Of a stretch of DNA of 64,000 nucleotides, positions 1-58,135 are shown one piece after another; the stretch's first letter is position 1; each line of letters begins with the position of its first letter. The notes below the pieces were generated by a model. The model did no database searches, had not been told where the DNA came from, and worked only from the letters and a program-made list of their open reading frames with translations. The position numbers and the translations under genes were made by a program. This DNA comes from Melioribacter sp. (GTDB lineage Bacteria; Bacteroidota; Ignavibacteria; Ignavibacteriales; Melioribacteraceae): positions 1 to 64,000 of the forward strand of contig JAHEZQ010000019.1 of assembly GCA_023250955.1 (NCBI GenBank). The letters are read 5' to 3'.

Positions 1-2736
1 TTTTTGTTTTTTTGCTCCGTGCATTATTTAAGCGGTCAAGAAAAACAATTTAAAGTTGACTTGAAGCTGAACGGATTCGGTGCGTTCTATACGAAAATTA
101 ATTCCGGTGCAGAATATGAAAAATATGCCCGCACTGGAGATTATCCTGATATAGTTGTTGATCTCGGAAACAGCGATTCAAAATTTATTTTTTGGACTGG
201 CTCAAGTTACTTGCCGTTTCTTGATTCAAAAAACGGACGATGGTTTGTTGATGAGTTAATCAAACGTAAGGGTGATGGCGATGAGAAAATGCCTGATAGA
301 ACAAACGCATATTCGGTCGTGAAGATTATTGAGTCATCGAAAGATCAAGTTGTAATTCATTGGAGATATACAACTCAGTTTACAAAATCTAATCCGCAGC
401 TTGGCATAACCCCATATACATTTGTTGACGAATATTTTTATATCAAACCGGATGGTACAGTAAGAAGAACAATTAAGAAGGGTACAAATAAAACTGATGA
501 TTGGACTGATCCTAAAAATATTGTAGCTCAAACTTTCAAACTTACTTCAACAGGAATTGCAGATAAAAATCTAGTTCCGACAGGTAAATCCGAAATCCTT
601 CATGTAGTTCAAGGTTCGAATGTAGTCCCTAATTATATCGTCAAACCTGCTGCATGGTGGAAATTTGATGAAGCACAAGGGGAAGAAGTAACAGAGTCTA
701 TCGGTAATAATAGTTCAGTTGTTGAAGGTAATAAAAGTTTATGGAGAAAAGGTATTTCCGGTACTGCGTTACAGTTTGACGGATACTTTTCAAAAATTGA
801 GATCCCTGCAGAAGTAACTCCAAAAATATCGAATCATTTTACTCTTGAAGCATGGATTGTAATCGGGGCATATCCCTGGAGTTATGTCCCGATTATTCAA
901 CAATGCGATGATGTTCCGGAAGAAGTGCAGTCATTTGTTGGAGAAAAAGCTTTATTGGAAGGGGAGGTAAAAAATTCCGAAGACAAGAAAGATTTTAGAG
1001 TTGAATTAAAAAAAGAAGATGATAAAGGATTTTTCTTAGGTGTTGATGGACATGGGTTTCCATCATTTAAAATTAGAGTTGGTAACAAATGGGAAGAGCT
1101 TACTTCCGGAATCCATCTTGAAAGAAGAAAATGGTATCAACTTGTTGCAACGTACAGTCAAGAAACGGGAGAAATGAATATTTATATTGATGGACAAATT
1201 GCCGGTATTAAAAAGGTTGCCCAAGCCAGCATAGAACTTTCCACGAAAAATATTTTGATTGGAAAAGGGAAAGAACGACGGCCGGTTGATCCTGTAAGAA
1301 AAAATACTTTCCCGGATTCATATTCGTTCGATGGATTGTTGGATGAAATAAAAATTTATGATGTTACTTTGACCGCAGCGCAAGTTGAACAGACCTTCAA
1401 ACTTTACAATTCTATTCCGGCAAAACTTTCAAATGTAAATATGGATAAAAGAGCTTTACCTGATGTAAGACAGCTGCGTTCTTTTGGCGGATATTATACA
1501 AAGCTAAAATTTTATGATATCTGGGATAACCTTTGGCGCTTCAGTGATCATCCCGATGTGGTTGTAGAATTTGATAAGCTGCCTACAAAATTTATTTTTT
1601 GGCGAGGTGTTAGTTACATCCCGATGATTGTTAATGAAAAGAACCAATGGTACAGCAATGAGTTTAATGAAACATGGAATAAATCCGGAGGACAGGGATG
1701 TCAGGAACCGATGTCCGACAAAGAAAATTATAATAATCATGCAAAGATAATTGAGAATACTCCCGCCCGAGTAGTTGTGCAATGGAGATTTCCTCTAATG
1801 GATGTAAATCATGTTATGGCAAATTACAATGATGCAACTGGCTGGGCTGACTGGAGCGATTGGTATTACTACATTTATCCAGATGGTTTGGCAGTAAAGA
1901 AAATGCACTTGTGGACAGATGGCGAAAGAAATCATGAGTGGCAAGAATCGATGGTGATTATGGGACCCGATCAGCATCCTGAACAAATTGTTAATACCAA
2001 AGACGCGCTCACGATGCTGAACATGAAAGGTGAATCGCAAACTTATGATTGGGTAACAGGTCCACCTAAAAATGTGAAGATACCCAAAGAAAAAAATATT
2101 CAGTACGTAAATTATACTGGCGAGTATAAACCGGTTACAATCGGTGAATTTGTAAAGTCAAATGTTTACAACGGCGAGATTACTCCTTATGCTGTTTTCC
2201 CAACATGGAATCATTGGCCGGTTTCTCAAATGCCGTCTGATGGAAGATATGCAAGCTTCACGGATAGAAGCGCTCATTCTTCACTTACTCATGTTATGAT
2301 GCCTGTTTACAAAGAAGCACTCACAGGAGATAAACCTTTCTATGAAAAATTACTCATGGAAGGAATGTTAAATAAAAAACCGGAAGAATTGATCCCGGTT
2401 GCAAAATCATGGTTAAGCGCCCCGCAATTGACAAATGCAAAAGGATGTTCGGGTGAGTTTGATAAAAGCCAGAGAGCATATGTAATCAATTTAAAGACTC
2501 CACCTGTATCATTCAGAATCGATTGTAGCGCCGACCATCCGATGATCAATGCATGTTTCGTAATTAAAAATTGGGGAAAGAGTACAGTTGCAATAATCTT
2601 GATTGACGGTAAAAAAATTGGGGATGATTCATCTATCAAACAAGGTGTAATCAGAGATACCGATGGATCTTATACAAAAATTATTTGGGTGGAAAAAGAA
2701 TCTGTTAAGCCTTTGGATTTTAAAATAACAATGTAA
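1..2736 (+). CDS. LamG-domain secreted protein, family member 1 (5' end truncated by the window); unnamed domain X duplicated around LamG
   Basis: ORF open from the window edge. LamG-like segment (FTLEAWIVIGAYPW...GLLDEIKIYD). C-terminal block FGGYYTKLKFYDIWDNLWRF...FIFWRGVSYIPMIV...PMSDK...IIENTPARVVVQWRF is partly repeated at the N-terminus (FGAFYTKINSG...FIFWTGSSYLPFL). Confidence 0.75.
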   Translation, partial: FLFFCSVHYLSGQEKQFKVDLKLNGFGAFYTKINSGAEYEKYARTGDYPDIVVDLGNSDSKFIFWTGSSYLPFLDSKNGRWFVDELIKRKGDGDEKMPDRTNAYSVVKIIESSKDQVVIHWRYTTQFTKSNPQLGITPYTFVDEYFYIKPDGTVRRTIKKGTNKTDDWTDPKNIVAQTFKLTSTGIADKNLVPTGKSEILHVVQGSNVVPNYIVKPAAWWKFDEAQGEEVTESIGNNSSVVEGNKSLWRKGISGTALQFDGYFSKIEIPAEVTPKISNHFTLEAWIVIGAYPWSYVPIIQQCDDVPEEVQSFVGEKALLEGEVKNSEDKKDFRVELKKEDDKGFFLGVDGHGFPSFKIRVGNKWEELTSGIHLERRKWYQLVATYSQETGEMNIYIDGQIAGIKKVAQASIELSTKNILIGKGKERRPVDPVRKNTFPDSYSFDGLLDEIKIYDVTLTAAQVEQTFKLYNSIPAKLSNVNMDKRALPDVRQLRSFGGYYTKLKFYDIWDNLWRFSDHPDVVVEFDKLPTKFIFWRGVSYIPMIVNEKNQWYSNEFNETWNKSGGQGCQEPMSDKENYNNHAKIIENTPARVVVQWRFPLMDVNHVMANYNDATGWADWSDWYYYIYPDGLAVKKMHLWTDGERNHEWQESMVIMGPDQHPEQIVNTKDALTMLNMKGESQTYDWVTGPPKNVKIPKEKNIQYVNYTGEYKPVTIGEFVKSNVYNGEITPYAVFPTWNHWPVSQMPSDGRYASFTDRSAHSSLTHVMMPVYKEALTGDKPFYEKLLMEGMLNKKPEELIPVAKSWLSAPQLTNAKGCSGEFDKSQRAYVINLKTPPVSFRIDCSADHPMINACFVIKNWGKSTVAIILIDGKKIGDDSSIKQGVIRDTDGSYTKIIWVEKESVKPLDFKITM

Positions 2737-2781
2737 TAATCGGTTGAACATTATTATGAATGAAAATTTCAAACATCTATA

Positions 2782-5388
2782 TTGAATTTTGGAGCGAAAA
2801 TGAAAAACGTAATTAAAATTTTATTCTTTTTAACCACAATATTTTTTATGTCGGTTAATATTCAAGCCGAAGGAAATAAATTTTATGCATACTATACAAA
2901 AGTTCAGCATTCGGCAACTGACTACATGGGAAAATACGCCGACCTAATTGTTGTACTGGAAGATGGAAAACAATTGGAGTTTACCCGCAAGACAGGTTAC
3001 CAACCATTGTGGAAAACTTCAAGCGGCACTTTTTTGATTGATGATCTTTTCCCAGGCAGAGATCAAGATTTCGAATTCAACTACAATTATGTTCGATTGA
3101 TTAAAAACGATCCCGATAAAATTATCGTTCAATGGCGGTATATCCCAGATATTCAAACACTCAACAAAGCTAATAAAGAATTAGATCCCATGATTGTCAA
3201 TGGATTCACTGGTGTAGTGGATGAATTATTCATTATTTATCCCGACGGCAAAATTGAAAGGGAAGTTAAAGAAGCCAAAAACTCTCGCATTGACGATTGG
3301 TTAAATCCAAAAAGTACAACTCATCAGACAATTAAATTATTGGATTCGGGAATCGATCATGGTATGGTTACGTGGGGAAATCCCGGACCATTTTTCCCGA
3401 GAGCGGCAGTAGAAGGTAATCCAATTAAAAAAAATACGGATGTAGTTAAACCGATTCGTAAATGGTCGTTCGACGAAGGTATTGCAAAGCATAAAGATTA
3501 CGTGTTTGATGAAGTGACCAAAACGAGATCGCTTGTTGAAGGTTTAATGACAACTTATAAAAAAGGAGTTTCGGGAACGTCTCTTGCCTTTGACGGATAT
3601 TATACTGGTGTCGAACTTCAGAAGAGTTTTCCGGAATTTAAAAATGAATTTTCTCTTGAAGCTTGGATAGCGCTTGATGTTCTACCGTACAACATTGCGC
3701 CGATCATTCACCAATCAAAAGAATTCGGAAAGGAAGGATACTATTTTGGAATCGATCCGTACGGATATCCATTCATAACTGTTAATGGAATAACCGCAAA
3801 GTCCATCAAGAAAATTTCTTTGTACAAATGGACACACGTCATGGCAACCGCTGGTGCCGATGAGGTAAACTTATATATAGATAAAGAAAAAGTTGCTTCC
3901 GCTCAAATCAATAATCTCACAATTCCTGCACTACCCGTTTATATCGGGTTGAATAATGAAAAAGAAAGATGCACAGATTTTGTGAGAACCAACGATCAAA
4001 ATTTGTTATTTGTTTATGGAATTCAAGGTTTGTTGGATGAAGTAAAAATTTATGATAAGAAATTATCAGCCGAGCAAATTGCAGAATCTTATAAAGCTCT
4101 CTTACCTGCCGACCGAACTTCTGATCTTGCAAAGGGAGTTTTACCAGGAGAAAATGGAACAGTTCAGAGGTTCGGAGCTTTTTACAAGAAGCTTCAGTTT
4201 CATGAACTTTGGGATAACATGTGGCGCGTATCGGACTTTGCAGATATCGTTGTAAAGTTTGATAACCTTCCCACGAGCGTTCTTTATTGGCGCGGAACAA
4301 ACTACGCTCCAAATTGGGTGGTTGATAATAATCGCTGGATGGCGGATCAAAGTTCTGAGATTTCAACTAAACATGGTTGTTCCGAACACATGGCTGATAA
4401 GCAAGTTCGTTCTAGCTTTTCAACCATAATTGAAAACACTCCGGCGCGTGTTGTTATTCATTGGAGGTATCCTTGCGTTGATGTTAGTTACTTCTGTGCG
4501 AATAGAAGAAATTGGACCGATGAATATCATACAATTTATCCCGATGGTACTGCAATCAGAAAAGTTATTTGGGATAAAGGTTTTGACCTTCCGGGATTTC
4601 AAGATATTCAATTTCTCACAAATCCGGGTGAAGCCCCGCTCGACGTCGTTGATATTCAAGCAATGACGGTTGCAAATACTAAAGGCGAAGTTGAAAAATT
4701 ATTGTGGAAGAAACCTTATATCGTTCCTAAAATTACCATCAATGACGCTTGCATCGAGATGCTTAATTCAAAATCGAACTACAAAGTGTTCACCATTTTC
4801 CAGGGCGGAAAGATTACACCATGGGGCGAGAAAGAACAATCGAAATACATTGATGACCCCTTCGCCGGACCTTGGAATCATTGGCCTGTTCACTTAGTTC
4901 CGTCAGACGGTAGATTCGCGGTCGATGTTGATCGGGTTACTCACTTTGCTCTTGGCGCAAATGATAATGCACCGGAATTTGGAAGTATGGTGTTTTATGG
5001 TTTTACAAATCAACCGATTGAAACATTGATCCCGATTGCAAAAGCTTGGAGAAACCCCCCATCAATTATTGATTTTGAGGGTGGGAAAAACACAGGTTAT
5101 GATAAAGATCAAAAAGCATTTGTATTTCTTCTTGAATCCCAAAAACTCTCATTCAAAATAAATGCAACAAAAGATAGTCCGGTTGTAAATCCAGCATTTG
5201 TTATTCGAGATTGGAATAGTGATTCAAGTGCATTGATTAAAATTGACGGCGAGACTGTTCAAATAGGTTCAGATTGCAGAGAAGGATTAACCAGAGATAC
5301 TAATGGGAAGTTGATGAAAATAATCTGGATGAAAATGACTTCAGAAAAATCGCTCGCTTTGGAAATTATTAAGGAAACTAAAAATTAA
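2782..5388 (+). CDS. LamG-domain secreted protein, family member 2; tandem paralog of the preceding gene
   Basis: Signal peptide (MKNVIKILFFLTTIFFMSVNIQA). Same N-terminal X / LamG / C-terminal X layout (FGAFYKKLQFHELWDNMWRVSDFADIVVKFDNLPTSVLYWRGTNY...EHMADKQ...IIENTPARVVIHWRYP). Confidence 0.8.
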   Translation: MNFGAKMKNVIKILFFLTTIFFMSVNIQAEGNKFYAYYTKVQHSATDYMGKYADLIVVLEDGKQLEFTRKTGYQPLWKTSSGTFLIDDLFPGRDQDFEFNYNYVRLIKNDPDKIIVQWRYIPDIQTLNKANKELDPMIVNGFTGVVDELFIIYPDGKIEREVKEAKNSRIDDWLNPKSTTHQTIKLLDSGIDHGMVTWGNPGPFFPRAAVEGNPIKKNTDVVKPIRKWSFDEGIAKHKDYVFDEVTKTRSLVEGLMTTYKKGVSGTSLAFDGYYTGVELQKSFPEFKNEFSLEAWIALDVLPYNIAPIIHQSKEFGKEGYYFGIDPYGYPFITVNGITAKSIKKISLYKWTHVMATAGADEVNLYIDKEKVASAQINNLTIPALPVYIGLNNEKERCTDFVRTNDQNLLFVYGIQGLLDEVKIYDKKLSAEQIAESYKALLPADRTSDLAKGVLPGENGTVQRFGAFYKKLQFHELWDNMWRVSDFADIVVKFDNLPTSVLYWRGTNYAPNWVVDNNRWMADQSSEISTKHGCSEHMADKQVRSSFSTIIENTPARVVIHWRYPCVDVSYFCANRRNWTDEYHTIYPDGTAIRKVIWDKGFDLPGFQDIQFLTNPGEAPLDVVDIQAMTVANTKGEVEKLLWKKPYIVPKITINDACIEMLNSKSNYKVFTIFQGGKITPWGEKEQSKYIDDPFAGPWNHWPVHLVPSDGRFAVDVDRVTHFALGANDNAPEFGSMVFYGFTNQPIETLIPIAKAWRNPPSIIDFEGGKNTGYDKDQKAFVFLLESQKLSFKINATKDSPVVNPAFVIRDWNSDSSALIKIDGETVQIGSDCREGLTRDTNGKLMKIIWMKMTSEKSLALEIIKETKN

Positions 5389-6518: not shown

Positions 6519-6532
6519 AAGTGAAGGAAACT

Positions 6533-8029
6533 ATGTCTAAAAACCACATTAGATTTATTTTCGGAGTATTAATTTTTGCAATGATATTCTGTACTCCAGA
6601 AAAAGAGAAGGCTCAATTAAAATACGAGTCTACGTGGACGTCTTTATCAAAGCATCAGACACCTCAGTGGTATAAGGATGCAAAATTTGGAATCTATACA
6701 CACTGGGGTATTTACTCTGTTCCTGCAAAGGGACCAAACGGTTCATGGTACGAACATTTTATGTACATCTCTGGATCGGAACAAAATAAATATCACATTG
6801 AAAATTACGGTCCCCCGGAAAAGTTTGGCTATAAAGATTTTATTCCGATGTTCAAAGCAGAAAAATTTAATGCAGATGAATGGGCTGATCTGTTTCAAAA
6901 ATCCGGGGCACAATTTGCTGGACCTGTTGCAATACATCATGATGGTTTTGCAATGTGGGATACAAAATATTCAGAATGGAACGCAGCAAAAATGGGTCCT
7001 CATAAAGATGTTGTTGGTGAACTTGAACGTGCAATCAAGAAAAGAGGGATGAAATTTTTAACTTCCTTTCATCATATTGAACATTGGTGGTTCGTCCCTA
7101 CATGGGATCAAAGATACGATACGAATAATCCGGCATATAAAGAATTTTATGGACCTATCCATGATAGTTTTAGGGATTCTCCAACCGATGAATATTTAAC
7201 TTCATGGAAAGATAAGGTTATCGAAGTTATTGATAATTACGATCCGGATATTATTTGGTTTGATACAGGACTCGGATCAGTAAGAGAAGATTATAGAAAG
7301 CAAATGATAGCATACTTCTATAACAAAGCTTTGGAACGTAATAAAGAAGTGGTCCTAAATTATAAAGGGAATGATATTTCCCCCGGAATTGGAGTAGTCG
7401 ATTTAGAGCTTGCCCAAATGCGCAAAATGACTTATTACAATTGGATTACAGATACTTCTGTTGACGATCAGGGAGCTTGGGGATACGTCAAAGAAGCAAA
7501 TTATAAATCAGTCAACAATCTTGTTGATAACTTGATAGATCGAGTCAGTAAGAATGGGTACTTGCTCTTAAATGTTGGTCCGAAGGCTGACGGCTCGATA
7601 CCTGAGGAAGTAAAAGAGCAACTCCTTGGCATTGGTAATTGGTTGAAAATTAATGGTGAAGCAATTTACAGTACAATTCCATGGACTATTGCGGAAGAGG
7701 GACCTACTAAACTTAAGTCAGATGCATCATTTAATAATGAAGAAAAATTCGAATACACTTCGCAAGATATAAGATTTACGACAAAGGATAATATTCTCTA
7801 TGCGATTTGTCTTGATTGGCCAGGTGAAAAAATCATAATTAAATCTTTATCAACTTTTGTGCATGAAGATTTCGTTGGAATATATAAAGAGGAGATAAAA
7901 TCGGTTTCAATGCTTGGTGACGGGAAAGAACTTGAATGGGTCATGGACAAAGAGGGTATGATAATCAAATTGCCTCTTGAAAAACCATGTAATTATGCAT
8001 TTGTTTTTAAGATTGTTCTAAGTAGATAA
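6533..8029 (+). CDS. Alpha-L-fucosidase, GH29
   Basis: WYKDAKFGIYTHWGIYSVPA, HHDGFAMWDTKYSEWNA, DPDIIWFDTG, NGYLLLNVGPKADGSIP. The ORF opens at GTG 6521; ATG 6533 with upstream GAAGGA is the likelier start. Confidence 0.9.
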   Translation: MSKNHIRFIFGVLIFAMIFCTPEKEKAQLKYESTWTSLSKHQTPQWYKDAKFGIYTHWGIYSVPAKGPNGSWYEHFMYISGSEQNKYHIENYGPPEKFGYKDFIPMFKAEKFNADEWADLFQKSGAQFAGPVAIHHDGFAMWDTKYSEWNAAKMGPHKDVVGELERAIKKRGMKFLTSFHHIEHWWFVPTWDQRYDTNNPAYKEFYGPIHDSFRDSPTDEYLTSWKDKVIEVIDNYDPDIIWFDTGLGSVREDYRKQMIAYFYNKALERNKEVVLNYKGNDISPGIGVVDLELAQMRKMTYYNWITDTSVDDQGAWGYVKEANYKSVNNLVDNLIDRVSKNGYLLLNVGPKADGSIPEEVKEQLLGIGNWLKINGEAIYSTIPWTIAEEGPTKLKSDASFNNEEKFEYTSQDIRFTTKDNILYAICLDWPGEKIIIKSLSTFVHEDFVGIYKEEIKSVSMLGDGKELEWVMDKEGMIIKLPLEKPCNYAFVFKIVLSR

Positions 8030-8107: not shown

Positions 8108-9187
8108 ATGCAAATGGGAAAAAAAGTATTCGGAAAATTAAAAGATGGAACCCAGATTGATCTTTATATAATAAGACATGATGACGGGTCAGAAATTCAA
8201 ATTATGAATTACGGAGCTGCAGTAGTATCGTTAAAAGTTCCGGATATACATGGTAATATTGAGGAGATTGTTCTCGGATTTGATCAACTAAAAGATTACG
8301 AAAATATAAGAAATTTCTATGGGGCAATTGTAGGCAGATCCGGTAATCGATTGGCTAAAGGGAAATTTTCATTGAACGGAATTCAATATAACTTGGCTGT
8401 AAATGATGGGGAAAATCATTTACATGGTGGCATCAAGGGATTTGATAGAGTTGTCTGGGATGCAAAGGAAATCAATGATGAGAAAAATCCTGGAATAAAA
8501 TTAGATTATTTGAGTAAGGACGGCGAAGAAGGTTACCCCGGCAATTTATTTGTGAATGTAACTTATACTTTTTCATCAGATCATCAATTGATAATTGATT
8601 ATAGTATGAAAAGTGACCGAGCTACAATAAAAAATATTACGAATCACTCATATTTTAATCTTTCAGGCAACATAAAAGAAAATATTTTAAACCATAGCTT
8701 GATTTTTAATGCAGACAAATTTTTACCTTCTTTAGAAGGATTAATCCCAACCGGTGAATTTAGAAATGTAAAAGATACTCCGATGGATTTTACTATACCT
8801 CACAAGATTGGCGAAAGAATAAATGTTGCCGATGAACAACTTAAAATAGGTGTCGGTTATGACCATACTTGGGTATTAAAAAAGGATAGTTGTTCACTAT
8901 CTTTTGCAGGCTCAGTACATGAACAAAATAGCGGAAGATTAATGGAAATATTTACGACTGAACCAGGTATTGGATTTTATTCTGGAAATTTTTTAGATGG
9001 AAGCCACGCAGGTCATAACAGTATTCTCTATAAATATCGTGATGGGATGTGCTTGCAAACTCAGCATTTTCCTGATGCTCCGAATCAATCTAGTTTCCAA
9101 ACTACTGTACTAAATCCGGGAGAAAATTATATTTCAAAAACGATTTATAAATTCTCGGTTAGTAAAATGCATGAAAGTAAGATTTGA
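8108..9187 (+). CDS. galM: Aldose 1-epimerase (galactose mutarotase)
   Basis: NYGAAVVSLKVPD, IVGRSGNRLAKGKF, NDGENHLHGGIKGFDRVVWDA, NHSYFNLSG, TTEPGIGFYSGNFLDG. Confidence 0.9.
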   Translation: MQMGKKVFGKLKDGTQIDLYIIRHDDGSEIQIMNYGAAVVSLKVPDIHGNIEEIVLGFDQLKDYENIRNFYGAIVGRSGNRLAKGKFSLNGIQYNLAVNDGENHLHGGIKGFDRVVWDAKEINDEKNPGIKLDYLSKDGEEGYPGNLFVNVTYTFSSDHQLIIDYSMKSDRATIKNITNHSYFNLSGNIKENILNHSLIFNADKFLPSLEGLIPTGEFRNVKDTPMDFTIPHKIGERINVADEQLKIGVGYDHTWVLKKDSCSLSFAGSVHEQNSGRLMEIFTTEPGIGFYSGNFLDGSHAGHNSILYKYRDGMCLQTQHFPDAPNQSSFQTTVLNPGENYISKTIYKFSVSKMHESKI

Positions 9188-9953: not shown

Positions 9954-11348
9954 ATGAGTAGTACAGTGTCACTTCGAAAGATAAATTCTTTTATCGTTTT
10001 AATATTATTTATGTTTCTCTTATCAAAAGCTAGTCTTGCTCAAGAGAATCAAAAATCAAGTATTAATTTGAATATCAATTATGCCCAATTCAGAACTGAA
10101 AATAAACGTGCGAACATTGAAATTTATTATTCATTTTTACGTAGTTCATTAGTACATATTAATAATGGGGATAAGTATGTAGCACAATACAAAGTTGATT
10201 TAAATATTTTTCGCAAAGATTCTTTGATCAAAAATATTTCTTGGCAAAATGTAGATGAATTAAGTTCTCTCTCCGAAATTAAAGTTGATCAAAGCATTAA
10301 TGATTTGCGTTCTCTTGTCCTTCCTGAAGATAATTATTATATAGAAATGAAGCTCGTCGATTTAAATAATAATAAATATGGTACTGAAAAAGTAGAACTA
10401 AAAATAAGACCTTCCAAAGTTGACGAGCTGTTTGTAAGTGATATTCAATTGGGGCTACAAATATCCAAAACTGATATAATAGGCAGATTTGTTAAAAATG
10501 GTTACGAAGTAATACCAAATCCAACTTCATCATACAACACCAATTGGCCTATTCTTTATTTCTATCTTGAAATTTTTAATCTATCAACACTTGAAAATAA
10601 CTCTGATTCAACTTATACGGTTGAAGCTAATATCACAGATAGTTTTGGCTTAGTCAAGAAAGTCTTTTCACCCATAACAAAAGTGAGACAAGCAACAGCG
10701 GTTATTGAAATCAATAAAACGTTTATAGGAGCGTTCTTCTCGGGAGGGTATACATTAAACGTAGTAGTGAGAGACAATAAAACGAACATTGTTAAAACTG
10801 TTTCTCAAAAATTTTATTTAAGTAGACCAGTTGATTATTTAGTAAAAGACGTTCAACAACAAGAAAGCCTGAGTGATGTATTTTTCGTAATGACTGAAGA
10901 GGAAATAGACAATGAATTTAATTATATCAGATACCTTGTTACACCTGATGAAATCAGTAATTATGAGAAATTAAATTTAGAAACCAAACGAAAGCTATTA
11001 AAAAATTTTTGGGAAAGTCATAAGACTCTTGAGAATAGCAAATACGAAAATTCCCGGGATGAGTATCTCAAAAGAGTAAAATATGCAGATGAAAGATATT
11101 CAATCGGTGGTAAGAAGGGTTGGAGAACTGATAGAGGTCGCATACTTCTAAAATATGGGCAACCATCTAAAACTGATGTTTTTAATTCGGAAGCTAAGAA
11201 GTATGAAACCTGGTCCTATGATGAGACCATGGGTGGAATCCAATTTGTATTCGTAGATATTTCAGGATATGGAGATTTACGATTAGTACATTCAACTTCC
11301 TTGAACGAAATTCAAGATTATGATTGGCAAACAAAGTGGTTAAAATAA
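9954..11348 (+). CDS. GWxTD domain-containing secreted protein
   Basis: Signal peptide; C-terminal GGKKGWRTDRGRILLKYGQPSKTD...YETWSYDE. Confidence 0.8.
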   Translation: MSSTVSLRKINSFIVLILFMFLLSKASLAQENQKSSINLNINYAQFRTENKRANIEIYYSFLRSSLVHINNGDKYVAQYKVDLNIFRKDSLIKNISWQNVDELSSLSEIKVDQSINDLRSLVLPEDNYYIEMKLVDLNNNKYGTEKVELKIRPSKVDELFVSDIQLGLQISKTDIIGRFVKNGYEVIPNPTSSYNTNWPILYFYLEIFNLSTLENNSDSTYTVEANITDSFGLVKKVFSPITKVRQATAVIEINKTFIGAFFSGGYTLNVVVRDNKTNIVKTVSQKFYLSRPVDYLVKDVQQQESLSDVFFVMTEEEIDNEFNYIRYLVTPDEISNYEKLNLETKRKLLKNFWESHKTLENSKYENSRDEYLKRVKYADERYSIGGKKGWRTDRGRILLKYGQPSKTDVFNSEAKKYETWSYDETMGGIQFVFVDISGYGDLRLVHSTSLNEIQDYDWQTKWLK

Positions 11349-18103: not shown

Positions 18104-20236
18104 ATGAAAAAGGAAAGTGTGTTCGTTCTGTTTGTTTTGTTATTGTTTCTTACTTGCCGATCAGAATTCGGGCAAGATAATGGGCTAGTTGCATACTGGT
18201 CGTTTGACGAAGCAAGTGGTAAAGTTGTAAACGAATCCATCAAAGGCAGTAAGGACTTAATCCAAGGTAATTTCTCGTTCGTCGGTGGCGTCCGCGGTAA
18301 CGGCATTAAGTACGACGGATTTACAACTCGCATTACACGAGATTCCGTTATGAATGGAAGATGGAATGCACCCGAAATTCAAGATGCTGTTACTTTCGAA
18401 GTTTGGATCACTCCTCAGGCATATCCTTGGAATTGGAATGCAATTGTAGAACAGAAAGACAGATATTTTTTCGGGTTGGATGCATCTGGCCACATTAGTC
18501 TGAGAGTCTTCATAGATAATTATTGGAGAGAGTGTGTCTCGACTTCAGTTGTTCCTTTCATGCAATGGTCACATATTGTTGCGACGTTCAATCCCCAAAG
18601 TGGTCTTACCATCTATATTAATGGGCAGGAGGCCGGTCATTTTGGAATTGTTGGTCGTTTCGCTAGGAAGCGACCTTTTGAACCTAGGCAGATCCAGGAC
18701 AAATATTTTACTGAGCGAGGAGCCGCTGGAGGTGCCTTCCAGATTGGTCGCAATCTAGAAAATTTACCCGCTGCAGCAACCAGACCAATACCAACTTCAT
18801 ATTCTTTTGATGGAATCATAGATGAACTGAAAATCTTTGGACGTGCTCTAGAAGCCGACGAAATAAAGAAATCGTACGAATCCCTGCGTCCTGTTACTCC
18901 ACCTCCTTTGACCTGGCGTAAACTGCCCCGCATCCCAGATGGGCAAAAACAATTTGGTGCCTATTACACAAATCTGAAATTCGACCCAGATTGGGACAGA
19001 CTTTGGCGTATTGATGACTATCCTGATCTGGTAATAACGTTTGATGACGCTACCTACAAAATGGTCTTCTGGCATGGAACTACATACGGCCTCTCTTTGG
19101 TAACAGAAAACGGACTTTGGATGGCAGAACAGAGTGCCGAAAGTCGTCGAACTGAATATGGATGTGTTGAACATATGTCTGATAAACAAGCTCGTTATTC
19201 TCATGTTCGCTTGATCGAAAACAGTCCCGCACGTATCGTCGTGCACTGGCGATATGCCTTGACTGATGTCCTGTATAACATTGGTGAAACCGATCCGATC
19301 ACCGGCTGGGGTGACTGGGCTGACGAGTACTACACAATTTATCCTGATGGTTGGGCGGTTCGTCATGTCCTTGTGCATGGTCCCCGTCAGCGATACAGTT
19401 TAACAGCGCCGCAAGCTATCCTTAGTCCAGGCGAAACACGTGCTGACATCATCTCGACGGAAACAGTTACGTTAGCAAAAATGGATGGCACGACGAGAAG
19501 TTTCGGCCCATCAACCGGAGCTGAACTTAATGAATTCTTGAATTCAGTTCCCATCCCAAATATTGCAATTGTGAATATGAAATCGGATTTCAAGCCAGCG
19601 TGGATTTTCGAGCCACCTACTGTGATTATAGAGGAGCGTCAACGCGGACCAGTGACTCAACTCAGAACTGTGCCGCAAAGTGGAGGTGCTGGTGCAGGAG
19701 GAACTCATTGGCCCATTGCACAAATTCCGTCCGACGGCAGGCGTGCATTTGCACTCGACCGTTTCTCCAGTGTGGAAATGTTTGCACCCGAACCACCACA
19801 AACCAAGCGTGCAAGAGATGGTGCCGTTGAAGCTCGATGGCTTACAGGATTTGCGAACAAACCTTTTGCAACAGTTCCAGTTGCGAATGCATGGTTACAA
19901 CCACCTGAACTGAAAATATCGGGTGTGGATTTCGTTAGTGACGGTTACAGTCGCGATGACCGGGCTTACCACCTGCACCGATTGTCCACAGGAAACACGA
20001 AGCTAGAATTCACTATTCAAGCCAGCGACAAATCGCCGGCAGTGAACCCTGCTTTTGTCATAGATGGATGGAGTAGCGACAGCTTTTCGCTGAACCTGAA
20101 TGGCAAACCAGTTATTGAGGGTAAAGACTTTCGAGTCGGCCGCATCGAGCGGTTGGAAAGTTCCAGTCTCGTAGTCTGGATTCGGGCAGATCTAACTGGG
20201 CCATCAAGCATTTCGCTAACTCCAACGATGAGATAA
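18104..20236 (+). CDS. LamG-domain secreted protein, family member 3 (single C-terminal domain X)
   Basis: Signal-peptide-like start; LamG segment (VTFEVWITPQAYPWNWNAIVEQKDRYFFGLDASG); FGAYYTNLKFDPDWDRLWRIDDYPDLVITFDD...FWHGTTYG...GCVEHMSDKQARYSHVRLIENSPARIVVHWRY...DEYYTIYPDGWAVR. Visibly more GC-rich than its neighbours. Confidence 0.8.
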   Translation: MKKESVFVLFVLLLFLTCRSEFGQDNGLVAYWSFDEASGKVVNESIKGSKDLIQGNFSFVGGVRGNGIKYDGFTTRITRDSVMNGRWNAPEIQDAVTFEVWITPQAYPWNWNAIVEQKDRYFFGLDASGHISLRVFIDNYWRECVSTSVVPFMQWSHIVATFNPQSGLTIYINGQEAGHFGIVGRFARKRPFEPRQIQDKYFTERGAAGGAFQIGRNLENLPAAATRPIPTSYSFDGIIDELKIFGRALEADEIKKSYESLRPVTPPPLTWRKLPRIPDGQKQFGAYYTNLKFDPDWDRLWRIDDYPDLVITFDDATYKMVFWHGTTYGLSLVTENGLWMAEQSAESRRTEYGCVEHMSDKQARYSHVRLIENSPARIVVHWRYALTDVLYNIGETDPITGWGDWADEYYTIYPDGWAVRHVLVHGPRQRYSLTAPQAILSPGETRADIISTETVTLAKMDGTTRSFGPSTGAELNEFLNSVPIPNIAIVNMKSDFKPAWIFEPPTVIIEERQRGPVTQLRTVPQSGGAGAGGTHWPIAQIPSDGRRAFALDRFSSVEMFAPEPPQTKRARDGAVEARWLTGFANKPFATVPVANAWLQPPELKISGVDFVSDGYSRDDRAYHLHRLSTGNTKLEFTIQASDKSPAVNPAFVIDGWSSDSFSLNLNGKPVIEGKDFRVGRIERLESSSLVVWIRADLTGPSSISLTPTMR

Positions 20237-25863: not shown

Positions 25864-27432
25864 ATGGAAAAAATAACTAGAAGAGAATTTCATAAAAAAA
25901 TAGTTGCAGGAGTTGCAGGAATTGCTGCAACGAGTTCAGGTATTCTTCCTCTTTACGGAATGACTCAAAATTTTCCCGATGGAAAGAAACCAAATTTTGT
26001 TTTTATTACATCCGATCAGCATAATGCTAAATACGCAGGCTACGCGGGACATCCATTTATTAAAACTCCCAATCTTGATAAAATTGCAAAGAAAGGTGTT
26101 GTCTTTGCAAATAATTACACTGGTAATCCGGTGTGCGTGCCAGGAAGAAGTTGTATGATGACGGGTATGTATGCATCAGATGTAAATTCATTTTGCAACT
26201 CAACCGTGTACGACGGTTCCTATTCAACATGGGGTAAACGATTAAAAGATGCGGGTTATTATTGTTGGGCGACAGGCAAACAAGATTTGAATCCTAAATT
26301 TGATATGGGATTTGTTGAGAGCAACGTTGATCACGGGCATGCAAAAAATCCTGATATAACTTCTTTGTTTAGAAGGCCATGTATTTTCAGGGTCGGAGAA
26401 AGAGAAGAGTTAGACGGTAAATTAAGAACTAAACGAAACAACGATGTAGAAGATAAAGATAACGGGCTCAATTTTATTAAAAATGAATCTACACAACTAA
26501 ATAAACCTTGGGTTTGCTATGTGGGATTTCATATGCCGCATCCGGCTTTTGTTGGACTGAAAGAATACTATGACTATTACCTGCCAAAAGTTGAAATACC
26601 GAATGTGACAATTGATGAATTAGAAAAATTACCGCTGCCATATCAAGAGCTTAGAAATTTTAAGCGAATATCAACACCACTTCCCGAAGAGAGAATAAAA
26701 AGAATTATTGCTGCGTACTTTTCAATGATTACCGAACTGGACGAGTATATTGGTGATCTTTACAAAGCGTTGGAAGATTCGGGACAAATAGAGAATACAT
26801 ATTTTATTTATACCTCCGATCATGGTGAATCTTTGGGCGAACATGGATTGTGGCATAAGAATAATCTTTTTGATGTTGCTTCGAGGGTTCCGCTTGTAAT
26901 GACAGGTCCGCACTTGCCGCAAGGGAAAGTAATTACAGAACCTATTAGTCATGTTGATTTGGTTGCATCAATGATTGAACTGGCTGGGATTAAAAACGCG
27001 CAGCAATTAAGAGGTACATCACTACTATCGTTGATTAAAGGTCATAAAAGCAAAGCGCCGGAATTTGTTTATAGCGAGTCGCATTCAGAAGGAAATCCCA
27101 CAGGTTCATGTATGATAAGAAAAGGGGATTGGAAGCTCATTCATTTTTCTTACTACGGCGATGCTCTCTTTAATATGAAAGAGGATCCGGATGAAAAAAA
27201 TAATTTAATCGATGATCCAAGCTACAAGGAAGTTGCTAATGGTTTGATGAAACTTCTTTACAGCAAAGTTGATCCAGAGGAGATCACCGAACGCGCTTTC
27301 AAATTGCAGGAAGATATGCTGCAAAAATTTGTGAATGAGACAAGCGAAGAAGGATTATTTAAAATGTTCAAGGGAAGATTAGGCGAAGGACAATCGAGAG
27401 TAATAATTGGGAAACTAAAGGGCAGAAAATAA
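25864..27432 (+). CDS. Sulfatase (type I, Cys-type), Tat signal
   Basis: Twin-arginine-like start ITRREFHKKIVAGVAG; FVFITSDQHNAKYAGYAGHPFIKTPNLDKIA; CVPGRSCMMTG (C-x-P-x-R formylglycine motif); YTSDHGESLGEHGLWHKNNLFD. Confidence 0.92.
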   Translation: MEKITRREFHKKIVAGVAGIAATSSGILPLYGMTQNFPDGKKPNFVFITSDQHNAKYAGYAGHPFIKTPNLDKIAKKGVVFANNYTGNPVCVPGRSCMMTGMYASDVNSFCNSTVYDGSYSTWGKRLKDAGYYCWATGKQDLNPKFDMGFVESNVDHGHAKNPDITSLFRRPCIFRVGEREELDGKLRTKRNNDVEDKDNGLNFIKNESTQLNKPWVCYVGFHMPHPAFVGLKEYYDYYLPKVEIPNVTIDELEKLPLPYQELRNFKRISTPLPEERIKRIIAAYFSMITELDEYIGDLYKALEDSGQIENTYFIYTSDHGESLGEHGLWHKNNLFDVASRVPLVMTGPHLPQGKVITEPISHVDLVASMIELAGIKNAQQLRGTSLLSLIKGHKSKAPEFVYSESHSEGNPTGSCMIRKGDWKLIHFSYYGDALFNMKEDPDEKNNLIDDPSYKEVANGLMKLLYSKVDPEEITERAFKLQEDMLQKFVNETSEEGLFKMFKGRLGEGQSRVIIGKLKGRK

Positions 27433-27461
27433 ATTTTTGATGATGTATCTAAAATTTTATA

Positions 27462-28913
27462 ATGGAAAAAACAAATATGCAAAAAATGAAAAACGATGAA
27501 AATCGGGATGAAATTTCCAGAAGAGAATTTTTAGGAAAATCAGCCATGGGAATCGGCGGCGCTGTTTTGGGTTCAATGTGGCTCCCCAATATCGGTTTAA
27601 GCGAAAATGCATTAAAGAAATTAGCCGGATCCAAACCGAATATTCTAATAATGGTTGCAGATGATCAAGGGTGGCGTGATGTTGGCTTTCATGATTCGGA
27701 AATAAAAACTCCAACTCTCGATAAACTTGCAAAAGAAAACGTTCAGCTGAATCAATTTTATGTATGTCCAACTTGCTCTCCAACAAGAGCTTCTCTCTTG
27801 ACTGGAAAATTCGCAAGTCGGTTTGGAATTCTTGGACCTATAGGGGGTAAAAGTACTCAATCATTACCTATGAATGTTCCTAATATTGCAAACGTATTGA
27901 AGCAAAACGGGTACGCAACAGCTCTAACGGGTAAATGGCATTTGGGGCTTACCTTAGAAACCGGCCCAAATCATTATGGATTTGATTATACATATGGTTA
28001 CTTGCACGGTCAAATCGATCAATACAAACATGTCTATAAGTTGAATGACAGAACATGGCATAGAAACGGAGCTTTCGTTGATGAAAAAGGGCACGCTACT
28101 GATCTTATCACAAACGAGGCTGTGAAATATCTGACCGAGATCAGAGATAAATCAAAACCGTTTTTCCTGGAAGTAACATTCAGCGTACCACATTATCCTT
28201 TGCAGGAAGAAAATAAATGGGTTAATCCCTACAAGGAAACAATCAAGAACGATTCCCGCAGAATGTTTGCCGCGTCAGTTGCCCACATGGATTTTTCAAT
28301 CAACAAAATCCTTGAGACGCTTAAGCAAGAAAAAATAGAAAGTAATACGATAGTAATTTTTTTAAGCGATAACGGGGCACAAGAAAATTGGTTTCCAGGT
28401 AAAGAGGAATACAATGGTGAGCTTGGGCCAAATGATGTTTTAGGTAACAACCGTCCACTACGCGATTGGAAAACTTCTTTATATGAAGGAGGTATTAGAG
28501 TACCCGCAATTGTAAGCTGGCCCGGAAAGCTGACTTCAAAAAAGATAGAGGAAGTTGTAAGCGTTACCGACATACTCCCGACTATTGCTTTTTTAACCGG
28601 TGCAAGAATTTCATCGGAAGTGAATCTTGACGGAAAAAATATTTGGTCTGCTATTACCAACGATGAATCAACCGGAGTTAGAGAAATTTATGGAAGAACA
28701 AAAAAGCAGTTGGCACTACGTTTTGGTAATTGGAAACTGATTCATAATGGAAAAACTCTCGATAAAGGGACTGATGAATTATATAATTTGAAAGACGATC
28801 CGTATGAAAAAAATGATGTATCGAAAGATCACATGAATATGTTAAAAGATTTACTTGAACGGATGAAGAAACAAACGCAGTCTGATGTAATTGTAGATAC
28901 ACCGGATGAATAG
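27462..28913 (+). CDS. Sulfatase (type I, Cys-type), Tat signal
   Basis: SRREFLGKSAMGIGGAV; NILIMVADDQGWRDVGFH; CPTCSPTRASLLTGKF (CSPTR motif); ALTGKWHLG. Confidence 0.93.
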   Translation: MEKTNMQKMKNDENRDEISRREFLGKSAMGIGGAVLGSMWLPNIGLSENALKKLAGSKPNILIMVADDQGWRDVGFHDSEIKTPTLDKLAKENVQLNQFYVCPTCSPTRASLLTGKFASRFGILGPIGGKSTQSLPMNVPNIANVLKQNGYATALTGKWHLGLTLETGPNHYGFDYTYGYLHGQIDQYKHVYKLNDRTWHRNGAFVDEKGHATDLITNEAVKYLTEIRDKSKPFFLEVTFSVPHYPLQEENKWVNPYKETIKNDSRRMFAASVAHMDFSINKILETLKQEKIESNTIVIFLSDNGAQENWFPGKEEYNGELGPNDVLGNNRPLRDWKTSLYEGGIRVPAIVSWPGKLTSKKIEEVVSVTDILPTIAFLTGARISSEVNLDGKNIWSAITNDESTGVREIYGRTKKQLALRFGNWKLIHNGKTLDKGTDELYNLKDDPYEKNDVSKDHMNMLKDLLERMKKQTQSDVIVDTPDE

Positions 28914-28951: not shown

Positions 28952-31015
28952 ATGTCAAACTCAAAACTAAAAACCGGGTACATTACATTAATTTTATTAT
29001 CTGTTTTGTTCTTCGGCAATAGACATGAGGATAAAAAACTTTTATTCCTTGATGATTTTAAATATTTAAAACCTCAGATGATCTCCAGTGATGTGATAGG
29101 TGCTTATTCTGAGTATCATAATATAGCAGCCACAGAGCCTAAAGGTAATTGGATTGTTTCAAGTTTCAGAAGCGACGGTTCACAACGCGCCTGGAGAGTA
29201 ATAGTTGAAAACGGACAACATATTATGCATCAAGTATATACTTCTTCTAAAGCCGAGCTTCTATATACACATCCTATACTAATTGCTGGTGATTCTCTTT
29301 GGAATGATTACTCGGTGGATGTTCAATTTTCACCGGAATCGAAGGGTGAACAAAGCGGATTCTTATTTAGATATCATAACGATAGATGCTATTACTTTTT
29401 TGGTGTACTTAAGGATAAAGTAATTCTAAAAAAAGTTAATCATGCCGAGGCTTACCGAACAGCCAGTGAAAAAATCCTTGCTGAAACAAAGACAAACTGG
29501 AAACCGGGTGAGTTGCTTACAGCCACAGTTACTGTAAAGGGCAATCATATAGCGGCTCAATTGAACAACGGAACTTTACTTGAAACGGAAGATGCTACAT
29601 TCTCAAAAGGTAAAATTGGATTAATGTCGGATGTTCCAACAAAATATTACAGTGTTAAGGTAACAACCAGTGAATCTGCTTTCAATGATTATCAAAGAAG
29701 AAAGGCAGCTTACAGTAACGAGATTGCAAAACTTAGAACTGCAAATCCAAAGCCCGTTCTTTGGAAAAAATTTACAACTGAAAATTACGGCGCACCAAGA
29801 AGTCTGAGATTCGGTGACTTAGACGGTGATGGTCAGATGGATATTTTAATCGGTCAAGTATTGAACCATGGTCCGAAAGACCGTAATAGTGAAGTTGGTT
29901 GTTTAACCGCAGTAAATCTTGATGGAAAAATTTTGTGGCAGGTTGGAACTGCTGATCTTTGGAATGAAAAGGTAACATGTGATGTGGCATTCCAGATTTA
30001 TGATATCGACACAGATGGGAAGAACGAAGTAATTTATTGCAAAGATATGGAATTGATAATTGCTGAAGGAGCAACCGGCAAAGCAAAAATTAAAATTCCA
30101 ACACCAGTCAATGAATCTGCCCCACCTCGAAATTTAACACCTAGAATAATGGGCGATGCTATTTATATCCTCAATATAAGAGGATTAAAATATCCTCAGG
30201 ATATCCTTCTAAAAGACCGTTATGAAAATTTTTATATCTATAATAACAAACTGGAGTTGATGTGGAGGGGAACTTGCAATACAGGACATTACCCTTATGC
30301 CTGGGATTTTGATGGAGATGGCAAAGACGAGATTGCAATTGGTTATTCTCTTTATGATGATGATGGAAAACAAATATTTTCTTTGGACAAACAACTAGAT
30401 GATCATGCCGACGGTGTGGCGATTATTAAATTACGAAATGATCTACCGTATGTAATTATGAATGCCGCGAGCGATGAAGGATTAGTTTTTTATGATATGA
30501 AAGGAAATTTATTAAAGCATTATTTCATAGGACACGTTCAAAATCCTGCGATAGCTAATCTGAGAAATGATTTACCAGGTCTTGAAACTGTAACAGTAAA
30601 CTTTTGGGGTAACCAGGGAATTGTTCACATGATTAATTCTGATATGGAAATATATCATGACTTTGAACCGTTCCAGCAAGGCAGTCCAATGCTACCTATT
30701 AATTGGACAGGAAAAGATGAGGAGCTTCTGGTTCTTTCTGCCGATGCAAACTACGGGGGTATGATTGATGGATGGGGAAGAACCGTAGTTACATTTCCTG
30801 CTGACGGACATCCAGATTTGTGTTATGCGGTAATGGATATTACCAGTGATTGTAGAGATGAGGTAGTTGTCTGGGATACTCAAGAAGTTTGGATTTATAC
30901 ACAAGACGACAATCCAAAAGTAAGAAAATTGTATAAGCCTCAGAGAAATGCTCTTTATAATTTTTCAAATTATTCTACTGCGGTATCGCTGCCTGGATGG
31001 TCGGAAAAGAAATAA
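28952..31015 (+). CDS. Secreted FG-GAP/VCBS beta-propeller protein with N-terminal concanavalin-like domain (paralog 1)
   Basis: LRFGDLDGDGQMDILIGQV, YDIDTDGKNEVIYC, WDFDGDGKDEIAIGYSLYDDDG; C-terminal KLYKPQRNALYNFSNYSTAVSLPGWSE. Confidence 0.7.
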   Translation: MSNSKLKTGYITLILLSVLFFGNRHEDKKLLFLDDFKYLKPQMISSDVIGAYSEYHNIAATEPKGNWIVSSFRSDGSQRAWRVIVENGQHIMHQVYTSSKAELLYTHPILIAGDSLWNDYSVDVQFSPESKGEQSGFLFRYHNDRCYYFFGVLKDKVILKKVNHAEAYRTASEKILAETKTNWKPGELLTATVTVKGNHIAAQLNNGTLLETEDATFSKGKIGLMSDVPTKYYSVKVTTSESAFNDYQRRKAAYSNEIAKLRTANPKPVLWKKFTTENYGAPRSLRFGDLDGDGQMDILIGQVLNHGPKDRNSEVGCLTAVNLDGKILWQVGTADLWNEKVTCDVAFQIYDIDTDGKNEVIYCKDMELIIAEGATGKAKIKIPTPVNESAPPRNLTPRIMGDAIYILNIRGLKYPQDILLKDRYENFYIYNNKLELMWRGTCNTGHYPYAWDFDGDGKDEIAIGYSLYDDDGKQIFSLDKQLDDHADGVAIIKLRNDLPYVIMNAASDEGLVFYDMKGNLLKHYFIGHVQNPAIANLRNDLPGLETVTVNFWGNQGIVHMINSDMEIYHDFEPFQQGSPMLPINWTGKDEELLVLSADANYGGMIDGWGRTVVTFPADGHPDLCYAVMDITSDCRDEVVVWDTQEVWIYTQDDNPKVRKLYKPQRNALYNFSNYSTAVSLPGWSEKK

Positions 31016-34906: not shown

Positions 34907-36325
34907 TTGAAAAAATCAATACTATTATCGTTTTGTTTTGTCTCGTTTCTTATAATTAGTAACGGTTTTACTTTCTTGAACGATGGAGAAGAAACAGGCT
35001 TATCGAAAGACCAACGTATGGAATGGTGGCGGCAGGCTAAATTCGGAATGTTTATTCATTGGGGACTCTATTCCGTTGCCGGAGGTTTTTGGAATGGAAA
35101 AGAAATAGACGGTTTGGGAGAATGGATTATGGCGCGCGGAGCGATCCCCGCTGGTGAATATGAAAAACTACCGCAAAGTTTTAATCCAATTAAATATAAT
35201 CCTGCTGAATATGTAAGAATCGCTAAAGAAGCCGGCATGAAGTATATCGTTATAACATCAAAGCACCACGAAGGGTTTGCAATGTATGATTCTAAAGTCA
35301 GTGATTACGACATTGTAGATAAAACTCCATACGCCAAAGATGTTTTAAAACCTCTCAGCGAAGAATGTAAAAAAGCCGGGATAAAATTTTGTATCTACTA
35401 TTCAATATTAGACTGGCATCATTCTGCTCAGGAACTGAATAAGAATAAGAAGAAAGATGACAACTATGGTAACAACCTGATAAAAGAAGGAAGGAAGAGC
35501 GAGTATGTCAATTTTATGAAGCAGCAATTAAAAGAAATTATCACTGCTTATGATCCTGCAATTATCTGGTTCGATGGCGGTTGGATGGATTGGTGGAAAC
35601 CGGAAGACGGGAAAGATTTAATGGATTATTTATGGTCGCTTAATCCAGCGTTGATAATAAATAATCGATGTGCCGGTACTGAAGAAATGGAACAAGTGAT
35701 GGGTGATTATTTAACGCCCGAACAGTTTGTTCCCAAGAGCAAAGAGCACAAAGATTTCGAAACCAATATGACATTGAACGACACATGGGGATACAAAAAA
35801 AATGATAACAATTGGAAATCTCCAGAAACATTAATCCATAACCTAATTGATATTTCCAGCAAAGGAGGAAATTTTCTTTTAAATGTAGGGCCTACACCTG
35901 AAGGAATAATCCCACAGCCGAGCGTTGAAAGATTAAAAGAAGTTGGCGAGTGGTTGCAGATAAACGGCGAAGCAATATATGGAACACACAATTGGGTCAA
36001 GTGGAAAGAAGGAGTCAATGAATTGGTTACACATTATTATAGACATAATTTGAAACGCGACGTGCAGTTTACGACTAAAGATGTAAGATTTACAGCCAAA
36101 GAGAATATTGTATATGCAGCTTTTTTTGTTTGGCCAACAACTAAAATTAAAATTAAATCTATTAATCAGAAAGAAGCATCGGATAAAAAAATAAAAAATG
36201 TATCACTTCTTGGTTCAAACGAGAAATTAACATGGGGTATTAGTAGCCAAGGATTGAGCATCGCCCCACCCAAAATTAAACCGTGCAAATATGCTTATGT
36301 ATTCAAAATTGAATTTAAGAAATAA
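34907..36325 (+). CDS. Alpha-L-fucosidase, GH29 (second copy, TTG start)
   Basis: WWRQAKFGMFIHWGLYSVAGG; ITSKHHEGFAMYDSKVSDYDIVD; DPAIIWFDGGWMDWW; GGNFLLNVGPTPEGIIP. TTG at 34907 preceded by AGGAGA. Confidence 0.92.
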   Translation: MKKSILLSFCFVSFLIISNGFTFLNDGEETGLSKDQRMEWWRQAKFGMFIHWGLYSVAGGFWNGKEIDGLGEWIMARGAIPAGEYEKLPQSFNPIKYNPAEYVRIAKEAGMKYIVITSKHHEGFAMYDSKVSDYDIVDKTPYAKDVLKPLSEECKKAGIKFCIYYSILDWHHSAQELNKNKKKDDNYGNNLIKEGRKSEYVNFMKQQLKEIITAYDPAIIWFDGGWMDWWKPEDGKDLMDYLWSLNPALIINNRCAGTEEMEQVMGDYLTPEQFVPKSKEHKDFETNMTLNDTWGYKKNDNNWKSPETLIHNLIDISSKGGNFLLNVGPTPEGIIPQPSVERLKEVGEWLQINGEAIYGTHNWVKWKEGVNELVTHYYRHNLKRDVQFTTKDVRFTAKENIVYAAFFVWPTTKIKIKSINQKEASDKKIKNVSLLGSNEKLTWGISSQGLSIAPPKIKPCKYAYVFKIEFKK

Positions 36326-44458: not shown

Positions 44459-44474
44459 AGGAAAGAGGATTAAA

Positions 44475-45422: not shown

Positions 45423-45440
45423 AAGGAAAATAATAAACAT

Positions 45441-46472: not shown

Positions 46473-46508
46473 TTTTTTTTCTATTATTGATAAAATTTAG
46501 GGAAGTAT

Positions 46509-52112: not shown

Positions 52113-52117
52113 TATTT

Positions 52118-54727: not shown

Positions 54728-54773
54728 TTCCAGAACAAACTGATTATATACTCCAAGATAGGAGGCAAATAAA

Positions 54774-55532: not shown

Positions 55533-55557
55533 AGTACAATGAAAAATAAGTAGGCGT

Positions 55558-55896
55558 ATGAAATTTACATTAGAAAATATTATTTCAAATGTAGATAATC
55601 TGCATCAGGTGAAAAAAGCAGATTTACATCCTGGCGATGAAGTGCAGTTACAGACAAGTAATTCCATGTATTTAATTAAAGTTGATGAAAATGGAGATTA
55701 TATTGTTTCAGGCGGATGGTTAGATAAGATGGCAATTGCACCTGCTAAATTATCAATTAACGGATGTACATGGGGAGGAAGTGTAATTAAGACAGATATA
55801 GTTGCAGCATGCGGGCTGTATCTTGAATTTAGTAACCGACTTGTAACTAGTAAAATAAAAAAGATTTATTACTTTCCACGAAGTTTAAAAAACTAA
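55558..55896 (+). CDS. Hypothetical protein (112 aa)
   Basis: ORF within a co-directional gene string; no family recognised. Confidence 0.55.
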   Translation: MKFTLENIISNVDNLHQVKKADLHPGDEVQLQTSNSMYLIKVDENGDYIVSGGWLDKMAIAPAKLSINGCTWGGSVIKTDIVAACGLYLEFSNRLVTSKIKKIYYFPRSLKN

Positions 55897-55933
55897 TGAA
55901 ATCATAATAATTAAAATAAAGTTTGAGGTAAAA

Positions 55934-58051: not shown

Positions 58052-58135
58052 ATCAACTACCCCTTTTATGAAGATCTAAAATTAGTTTAAAGCTGTAAAC
58101 AAGAACATTACCTCCTTAATTTAATCGAGGCAAAA

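Follow-up and report, generated by a model that had tools for sequence, protein, structure and literature searches.

Three LamG proteins are encoded in the 64,000-nucleotide stretch of Melioribacter DNA analyzed here (the window), and the locus raises the question of what the unnamed domain of about 430 aa shared by their C-termini is and what it might do. The breakdown of complex sulfated fucose glycans, fucoidan among them, is slow, and its enzymology is in large part missing. A preliminary description, made from the sequence, had noted that the domain lies beside sulfatases and fucosidases, and this setting is confirmed by PF00884 and PF01120 matches in the window (Table 1) and by the co-localization with GH29 and GH95 described below.

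The Domain and Its Copies

That the same block ends all three LamG proteins is borne out by alignment of the full copies: the domains of the first two open reading frames (ORF1 and ORF2) and of the third protein (the 18104 protein, after its first base) align, quoted motifs included, at 33–37% identity to the 18104 copy, although the block is longer than the roughly 400 aa first given. Across the 3.26-Mb genome (67 contigs, the window starting at base 1 of contig C38), full copies are matched at E-values of 1e-64 to 1e-135, and chance resemblance is therefore excluded. The genome has another four full copies on contig C61, including a stand-alone protein of 464 aa (L002 2864–4258) with signal and domain only. 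Because ORF1 is cut by the contig start, its true N-terminus is missing. Profile searches also recovered the shortened copy that had been claimed to precede LamG in the first two proteins, at aa 24–171 of ORF1 and aa 29–173 of ORF2; such half-copies span only about positions 13–170 of the domain. Domain residues are numbered from window base 18905, residue n being residue n+267 of the 18104 protein.

Table 1. Domain copies and neighboring genes in the window.
Feature	Position	Strand	Evidence or remark
ORF1, order half-LamG-full, 5' truncated	1..2736	+	contig start
Half-copy in ORF1, N-terminal to LamG	70..513	+	hmmsearch 115.8 bits, profile positions 15–169
LamG/concanavalin A-like domain of ORF1	790..1386	+	PF13385, E 1.2e-19
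Full unnamed domain of ORF1 (predicted supersandwich core plus C-terminal beta-sandwich)	1438..2733	+	alignments; E 1.3e-64 and 2e-188
ORF2, order half-LamG-full, 868 aa	2782..5388	+	
Half-copy in ORF2, before LamG	2866..3300	+	hmmsearch 47.1 bits, profile positions 12–166
LamG domain of ORF2	3595..4083	+	PF13385, E 1.5e-17
Full unnamed domain of ORF2	4120..5385	+	alignments, genome matches
GH29 alpha-L-fucosidase adjoining domain genes	6521..8029	+	PF01120, E 1.7e-101
Separate galM gene	8108..9187		PF01263 match at 8162–9151
Third protein, LamG plus full domain, 710 aa	18104..20236	+	
LamG of 18104 protein, best-scoring stretch	18383..18658	+	PF13385, E 1.1e-22
Full unnamed domain of 18104 protein, modelled	18905..20233	+	AlphaFold2, Foldseek, conservation
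Two tandem sulfatases	25864..28913	+	PF00884, E 1.4e-45 and 2.6e-58
Second GH29	34907..36325	+	PF01120, E 4.2e-95

Among 137 proteins, 114 contain one full domain and 18 a half-copy together with a full one. LamG is the fused partner in most members, but the domain also occurs alone (further stand-alone members are found at loci L014, L022, and L081), with FN3 modules (FN3-type domains are added in two proteins), and, in proteobacterial operons, without an apparent signal peptide. The half-LamG-full order recurs in Bacteroidota, Planctomycetota, Verrucomicrobiota, and Aminicenantes, judged by locus origin; in these proteins from outside the window LamG was read from the sequence and, for L080 only, tested against Pfam. 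A hydrophobic N-terminus of the kind usual in exported proteins is present in most copies. The ORFs from Devosia, a Betaproteobacterium, and a Lokiarchaeota MAG start directly in LamG-like sequence, and no signal peptide is apparent in them by eye. A different, unassigned N-terminal region of about 260 aa replaces LamG in three distant members (L113, L114, and L115); that of L114 has no Pfam match.

The predominance of LamG fusions, together with the SusC/SusD genes that adjoin the domain in several Bacteroidota loci, would suit a non-catalytic carbohydrate-binding or surface-glycan module that, with LamG, holds polysaccharide for GH29, GH95, and sulfatases. We consider this rather unlikely, as stand-alone and cytoplasmic-looking members beside sugar catabolism genes are hard to square with pure capture.

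Search for a Known Family

The preliminary description could assign the domain to no known GH or PL family, and the same result was obtained here. The reference member matched 0 Pfam families at E ≤ 1, and no Pfam family matched more than two of 79 members, the best E-value (0.0063) going to a DUF. Pfam-A contains models for GH and PL families, including MdoG (GH186) and Rhamnogal_lyase (PL4), as well as for Aldose_epim, and neither the MdoG nor the Rhamnogal_lyase profile matched the reference member or the 79 members in this search. Against NCBIfam, the domain region had no credible match, the returns being TafC (mainly over the LamG region and far below the cut-off) and one trivial match. 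A profile of 79 sequences found no relative among PDB sequences (best E 0.23, to an RNA polymerase subunit), plasmid and phage collections held no match to the domain, and literature searches found no description of it. Alignment by hhalign to galactose mutarotase and LacZ small-chain profiles gave no match, but this comparison is uninformative, since those two families failed to match each other as well and the profiles left out 8 of 15 and 12 of 19 sequences. By sequence, the domain family has no counterpart in Pfam, NCBIfam, or the PDB and looks undescribed.

Predicted Fold

AlphaFold modelling followed by Foldseek, proposed earlier as a check on the family, gave confident AlphaFold2 models both for the domain of the 18104 protein (mean pLDDT 89.2, pTM 0.92) and for the 325-aa core of the stand-alone protein (pLDDT 93.4, pTM 0.92). 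At E ≤ 1e-3, the Foldseek matches were mostly supersandwich modules, namely those of LacZ, the GH38 C-terminal module (structures 2wyh/2wyi), and galactose mutarotase, plus amine oxidases, which belong to the same fold class. The best E-values, 1e-5 to 1e-9, went to the LacZ supersandwich module and the GH38 C-terminal module; the core model had 96 PDB matches at E ≤ 1e-3, and the 50 of them that were listed come from LacZ, galactose mutarotase, and copper/diamine oxidases. On these models, the core of about 325 aa is predicted to be of the supersandwich (galactose-mutarotase-like) fold class. Since the TM-scores are only 0.3–0.44, with a maximum of 0.44 among the matches listed, we claim the fold class and not homology. 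The last 100 residues or so form a further all-beta unit in the model, a smaller beta-sandwich. Against viral proteins, Foldseek gave three matches at E ≤ 1e-3, two of them probable chlorovirus proteins, with low TM-scores.

Many supersandwich modules are non-catalytic, and each of those matched here, in LacZ, GH38, and amine oxidase, belongs to a larger enzyme, which again favors a binding module. The presence of galactose mutarotase among the structures matched (TM 0.37–0.44) raises a further alternative, an epimerase or mutarotase-like isomerase acting on glycans or on released sugars, and the cytoplasmic-looking form does adjoin sugar dehydrogenases. Such an activity is nevertheless very unlikely in our judgment: most copies carry the export-type N-terminus, many are fused to LamG or FN3, the tens of paralogues per genome suit polymer specificity and not one isomerization, and the window already has a separate galM gene.

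Conserved Residues and the Degenerate Half-Copy

Seven residues (E79, E89, D93, R110, Y146, W269, and G315) are invariant in 89 core sequences, the most distant of which are about 26–34% identical to the query of that set, and the same seven do not vary among 22 sequences with identities down to 19%. In the 18104 protein, E79, E89, D93, R110, Y146, and the second-half histidine H268 correspond to E346, E356, D360, R377, Y413, and H535. The full copies (n = 134) keep E79 in 132, E89 in 133, and R110 and Y146 in 134 each, whereas the half-copies (n = 18) keep E79 in one, R110 in one, Y146 in four, and E89 in at most two or three (eight gaps and seven other residues are itemized, the remaining three are not). 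By contrast, D93, W115, R116, and Y117 are kept in 18/18 half-copies, and E141 and R153 in 17/18. In the alignment, the ORF1 half-copy does not have the residues proposed for the active site in full copies, residue states being taken across all 18 half-copies. The conservation of E89, D93, R110, and R116 is partly selected, because these positions fall inside the peptide patterns by which members were collected; E79, Y146, H268, and W269 fall outside them.

Since E79, E89, R110, and Y146 are near-invariant in full copies but have disappeared from most half-copies, these four appear to be functional and the others framework. The preliminary description had pointed to invariant W, H, R, Y, and D positions; polar residues are indeed invariant, but W115, R116, and D93 belong to the framework retained by the half-copies. 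We read the full domain as a putative catalytic module and the half-copy as a degenerate accessory repeat. Near-invariance of E79/E89/R110/Y146 across distant subfamilies, with loss mostly in half-copies, would be unusual for a binding module.

The conserved set could also be that of a polysaccharide lyase with a supersandwich fold, which would cleave uronic-acid-containing glycans by beta-elimination via Tyr/His and Arg. PL4 provides a parallel, being a lyase whose catalytic domain is mutarotase-like. The His/Tyr type of elimination known from lyases (PMC9410043) is matched by Y146, R110, and H268, yet one distant subfamily lacks H268, and the two invariant glutamates fit a hydrolase better. 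We regard elimination as unlikely, also in view of the neighboring genes (see below), and return to the hydrolytic reading after considering distribution and gene context.

Distribution and Descent

At least 335 related stretches, from more than ten phyla, were recovered when GTDB genomes were scanned by pattern. Their distribution is patchy. Carriers belong to Planctomycetota, Bacteroidota, Verrucomicrobiota, Kiritimatiellota, Acidobacteriota, and Hydrogenedentota, and also to Aminicenantes, KSB1, Caldisericota, Myxococcota, Pseudomonadota, and one Lokiarchaeota MAG, the phylum of each MAG being its submitters' assignment. Carrier genomes have 1 to 46 profile matches each, half-copies and fragments included, with top counts of 46, 24, and 19; the 46 copies are in one Sedimentisphaerales MAG (Planctomycetota, 4.4 Mb). 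In a set of 60 genomes around a Sedimentisphaerales MAG, 11 carry the domain, that MAG counted. The domain was found in 0 of 57 close relatives of the window's genome and in 0 of 296 others sampled from its phylum, which rules out simple vertical inheritance in this lineage.

In the tree, the genome's seven own copies occupy at least five places, several of them adjoining Planctomycetota copies, and the C-terminal domains of ORF1 and ORF2 fall in different clades. Recent tandem duplication of ORF1/ORF2 is ruled out by this tree, in which starred branches force five or more label changes on the seven own copies. The internal duplication in tandem genes proposed earlier thus stands only in part: a half-copy is present, but it is degenerate, and the adjacent genes are not recent duplicates. 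Because the own copies are scattered in this way, ORF1 and ORF2 are best read as old paralogues, and lateral acquisition of domain copies seems likely, with a direction that we infer.

Gene Neighborhood

Clustering of the ORFs around 79 loci identified sulfatase in 19, zinc dehydrogenase in 18, GH29 in 15, SSS transporter in 14, aldo-keto reductase and SusC in 9 each, SusD, PfkB, and iron dehydrogenase in 8 each, GH106 in 7, and GH95 in 6; clusters were named via representative members, by Pfam/NCBIfam for some and by sequence reading for the rest. Of the 142 GH29 genes listed for 29 genomes, 25 are no more than 10 kb from the domain (2.7 expected), and 5 of 25 GH95 genes lie near it (0.62 expected), under a null of uniform, independent placement and with a signal driven by nine genomes; 6 of the 29 carrier genomes are without GH29. 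In the genome studied here, 4 of 7 GH29 genes and 2 of 4 sulfatases are on the two domain-bearing contigs. Fucose is a substrate proposed through guilt by association, and GH106 at 7 loci suggests rhamnose in other cases.

Among the cytoplasmic-looking forms, Devosia copies come after sugar ABC-transporter genes, and the Betaproteobacterium operon combines the domain with an SDR, an aldo-keto reductase, a lactonase, and a UxuA-like dehydratase. The lactonase is closest to L-fucono-lactonase (256.8 bits, below the 400-bit cut-off), and GH29 was not found in that genome. UxuA in this operon is a point for the lyase, but 17 of 30 carrier genomes, among them the copy-rich ones with 46, 24, 19, and 12 copies, have no GH88/GH105 gene, which would be expected to act after a uronate lyase. 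None of 26 GH88/GH105 genes lies within 20 kb of a copy, a weak point given a chance expectation of only 0.37.

Several other features of these loci were recorded. In the window, a GWxTD-domain protein is encoded at 9954–11348, and two related secreted proteins (28952–31015 and 32720–34780) flank a GH28 gene, the first with FG-GAP repeats, a match to the C-terminal region of PL11 rhamnogalacturonan lyase, and a weak match to 3-keto-disaccharide hydrolase. A GH127-like (beta-L-arabinofuranosidase) protein (38074–40227) is located between a Gfo/Idh-like oxidoreductase and a radical SAM protein (40484–41791) that has SPASM and SEC-C motifs and resembles anaerobic sulfatase maturase. Genes for an iron dehydrogenase, a DHDPS-like aldolase, a PdxA-like dehydrogenase, and a DUF1537-type kinase are consecutive at 43313–47678, and an iron dehydrogenase-DHDPS-PdxA run likewise follows the domain at L025 (5427–8568). 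Sequence reading indicates four tandem serine/threonine kinase proteins with nearly identical N-termini at 49998–60859, three with TPR-like and one with WD40-like C-terminal parts. A secreted protein starting N-P-V-[IL]-K-P-G-x-x-G-x-W-D-A-G-A-L-G-S-M-S is found near the domain in five loci and on contig C61; its copies include L078:15709–17883 (725 aa; no Pfam match, beta-propeller glycosidase-like by motif only) and the end of L004 (2814–2994).

Proposed Function

The domain had been put forward as a carbohydrate-active candidate, whether hydrolase, lyase, or binding module. The enzyme reading has gained from the residue loss in half-copies, the stand-alone and cytoplasmic-looking members, and the co-localization, while a lyase has become less likely than a hydrolase. 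A glycan-cleaving enzyme is probably the right description, because polar residues are fixed, stand-alone and cytoplasmic-looking forms exist, the expansion is CAZyme-like, and the genes are linked to fucosidases and sulfatases. For the narrower proposal, a so far undescribed family of glycoside hydrolases with a supersandwich fold that attack fucose-containing and often sulfated glycans, we see about an even chance. Slightly less assured is the fuller version, in which one or more new GH families in more than ten phyla would have the supersandwich itself as the seat of an active site of two Glu, Arg, and Tyr, would open fucose-rich and often sulfated glycans, with tens of paralogues in some Planctomycetota from sediment, and would use the recurring degenerate half-domain as an accessory.

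In the proposed mechanism, the domain would be the catalytic module, accompanied by the C-terminal beta-sandwich and usually by an N-terminal LamG, of a protein that is exported, or cytoplasmic in some bacteria, and that cleaves glycosidic bonds in fucose-containing, often sulfated glycans. The two invariant glutamates would supply acid/base chemistry; R110, Y146, and H268 would bind or polarize the substrate; and LamG and, where present, the half-copy would hold the chain. Diverged paralogues within one locus may differ in linkage or sulfation preference and would work alongside GH29, GH95, and sulfatases.

A large, uncatalogued family with 46 copies in a single 4.4-Mb Planctomycetota genome and with strong linkage to GH29, GH95, and sulfatases offers specific targets for study. 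Were it catalytic, many 'LamG domain-containing' proteins would gain a name, and a fold rarely used for the cleavage of glycosidic bonds would be added, with GH186 as precedent.

Comparison With Known Systems

The unnamed domain is separate from LamG (Laminin_G_3, PF13385), lying C-terminal to it and also occurring without it. With galactose mutarotase/aldose 1-epimerase (PF01263) it shares the predicted fold class (1l7k, TM 0.43/0.41; 1ns2, TM 0.44/0.42), but there is no profile similarity, and the domain described here is mostly exported and has an extra C-terminal sandwich and LamG. The LacZ supersandwich module and the GH38 C-terminal module are its closest matches by Foldseek E-value. In LacZ, catalysis takes place in a domain other than the supersandwich module. 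The GH38 C-terminal module is similarly non-catalytic, with catalysis in another domain (PMC10514313); unlike these modules, the unnamed domain also occurs alone. The fucoidan lyase FdlA acts on fucoidan, a glycan of the type proposed as substrate here, and could likewise be assigned to no PL family by sequence, but is ruled out as a relative by its beta-helix fold (PMC9410043).

By the profile evidence, the domain does not appear to be a member of GH186 or PL4. GH186 (OpgG/OpgD, MdoG superfamily) differs from it in that the domain described here has no MdoG match, has GH29 and sulfatases as neighbors, and is fused to LamG. Among GH enzymes, DALI matched OpgD best to a non-catalytic module, the C-terminal one of GH38 2wyh, which the domain described here also matches, and OpgD nonetheless proved to be a glycoside hydrolase, with D388, D300, R359, Y356, and E385 important by mutation (PMC10514313). 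This set of carboxylates, Arg, and Tyr is similar in kind to E79/E89/R110/Y146, compared by residue class alone, and by this analogy GH186 may be regarded as the closest precedent for a catalytic module of this sort.
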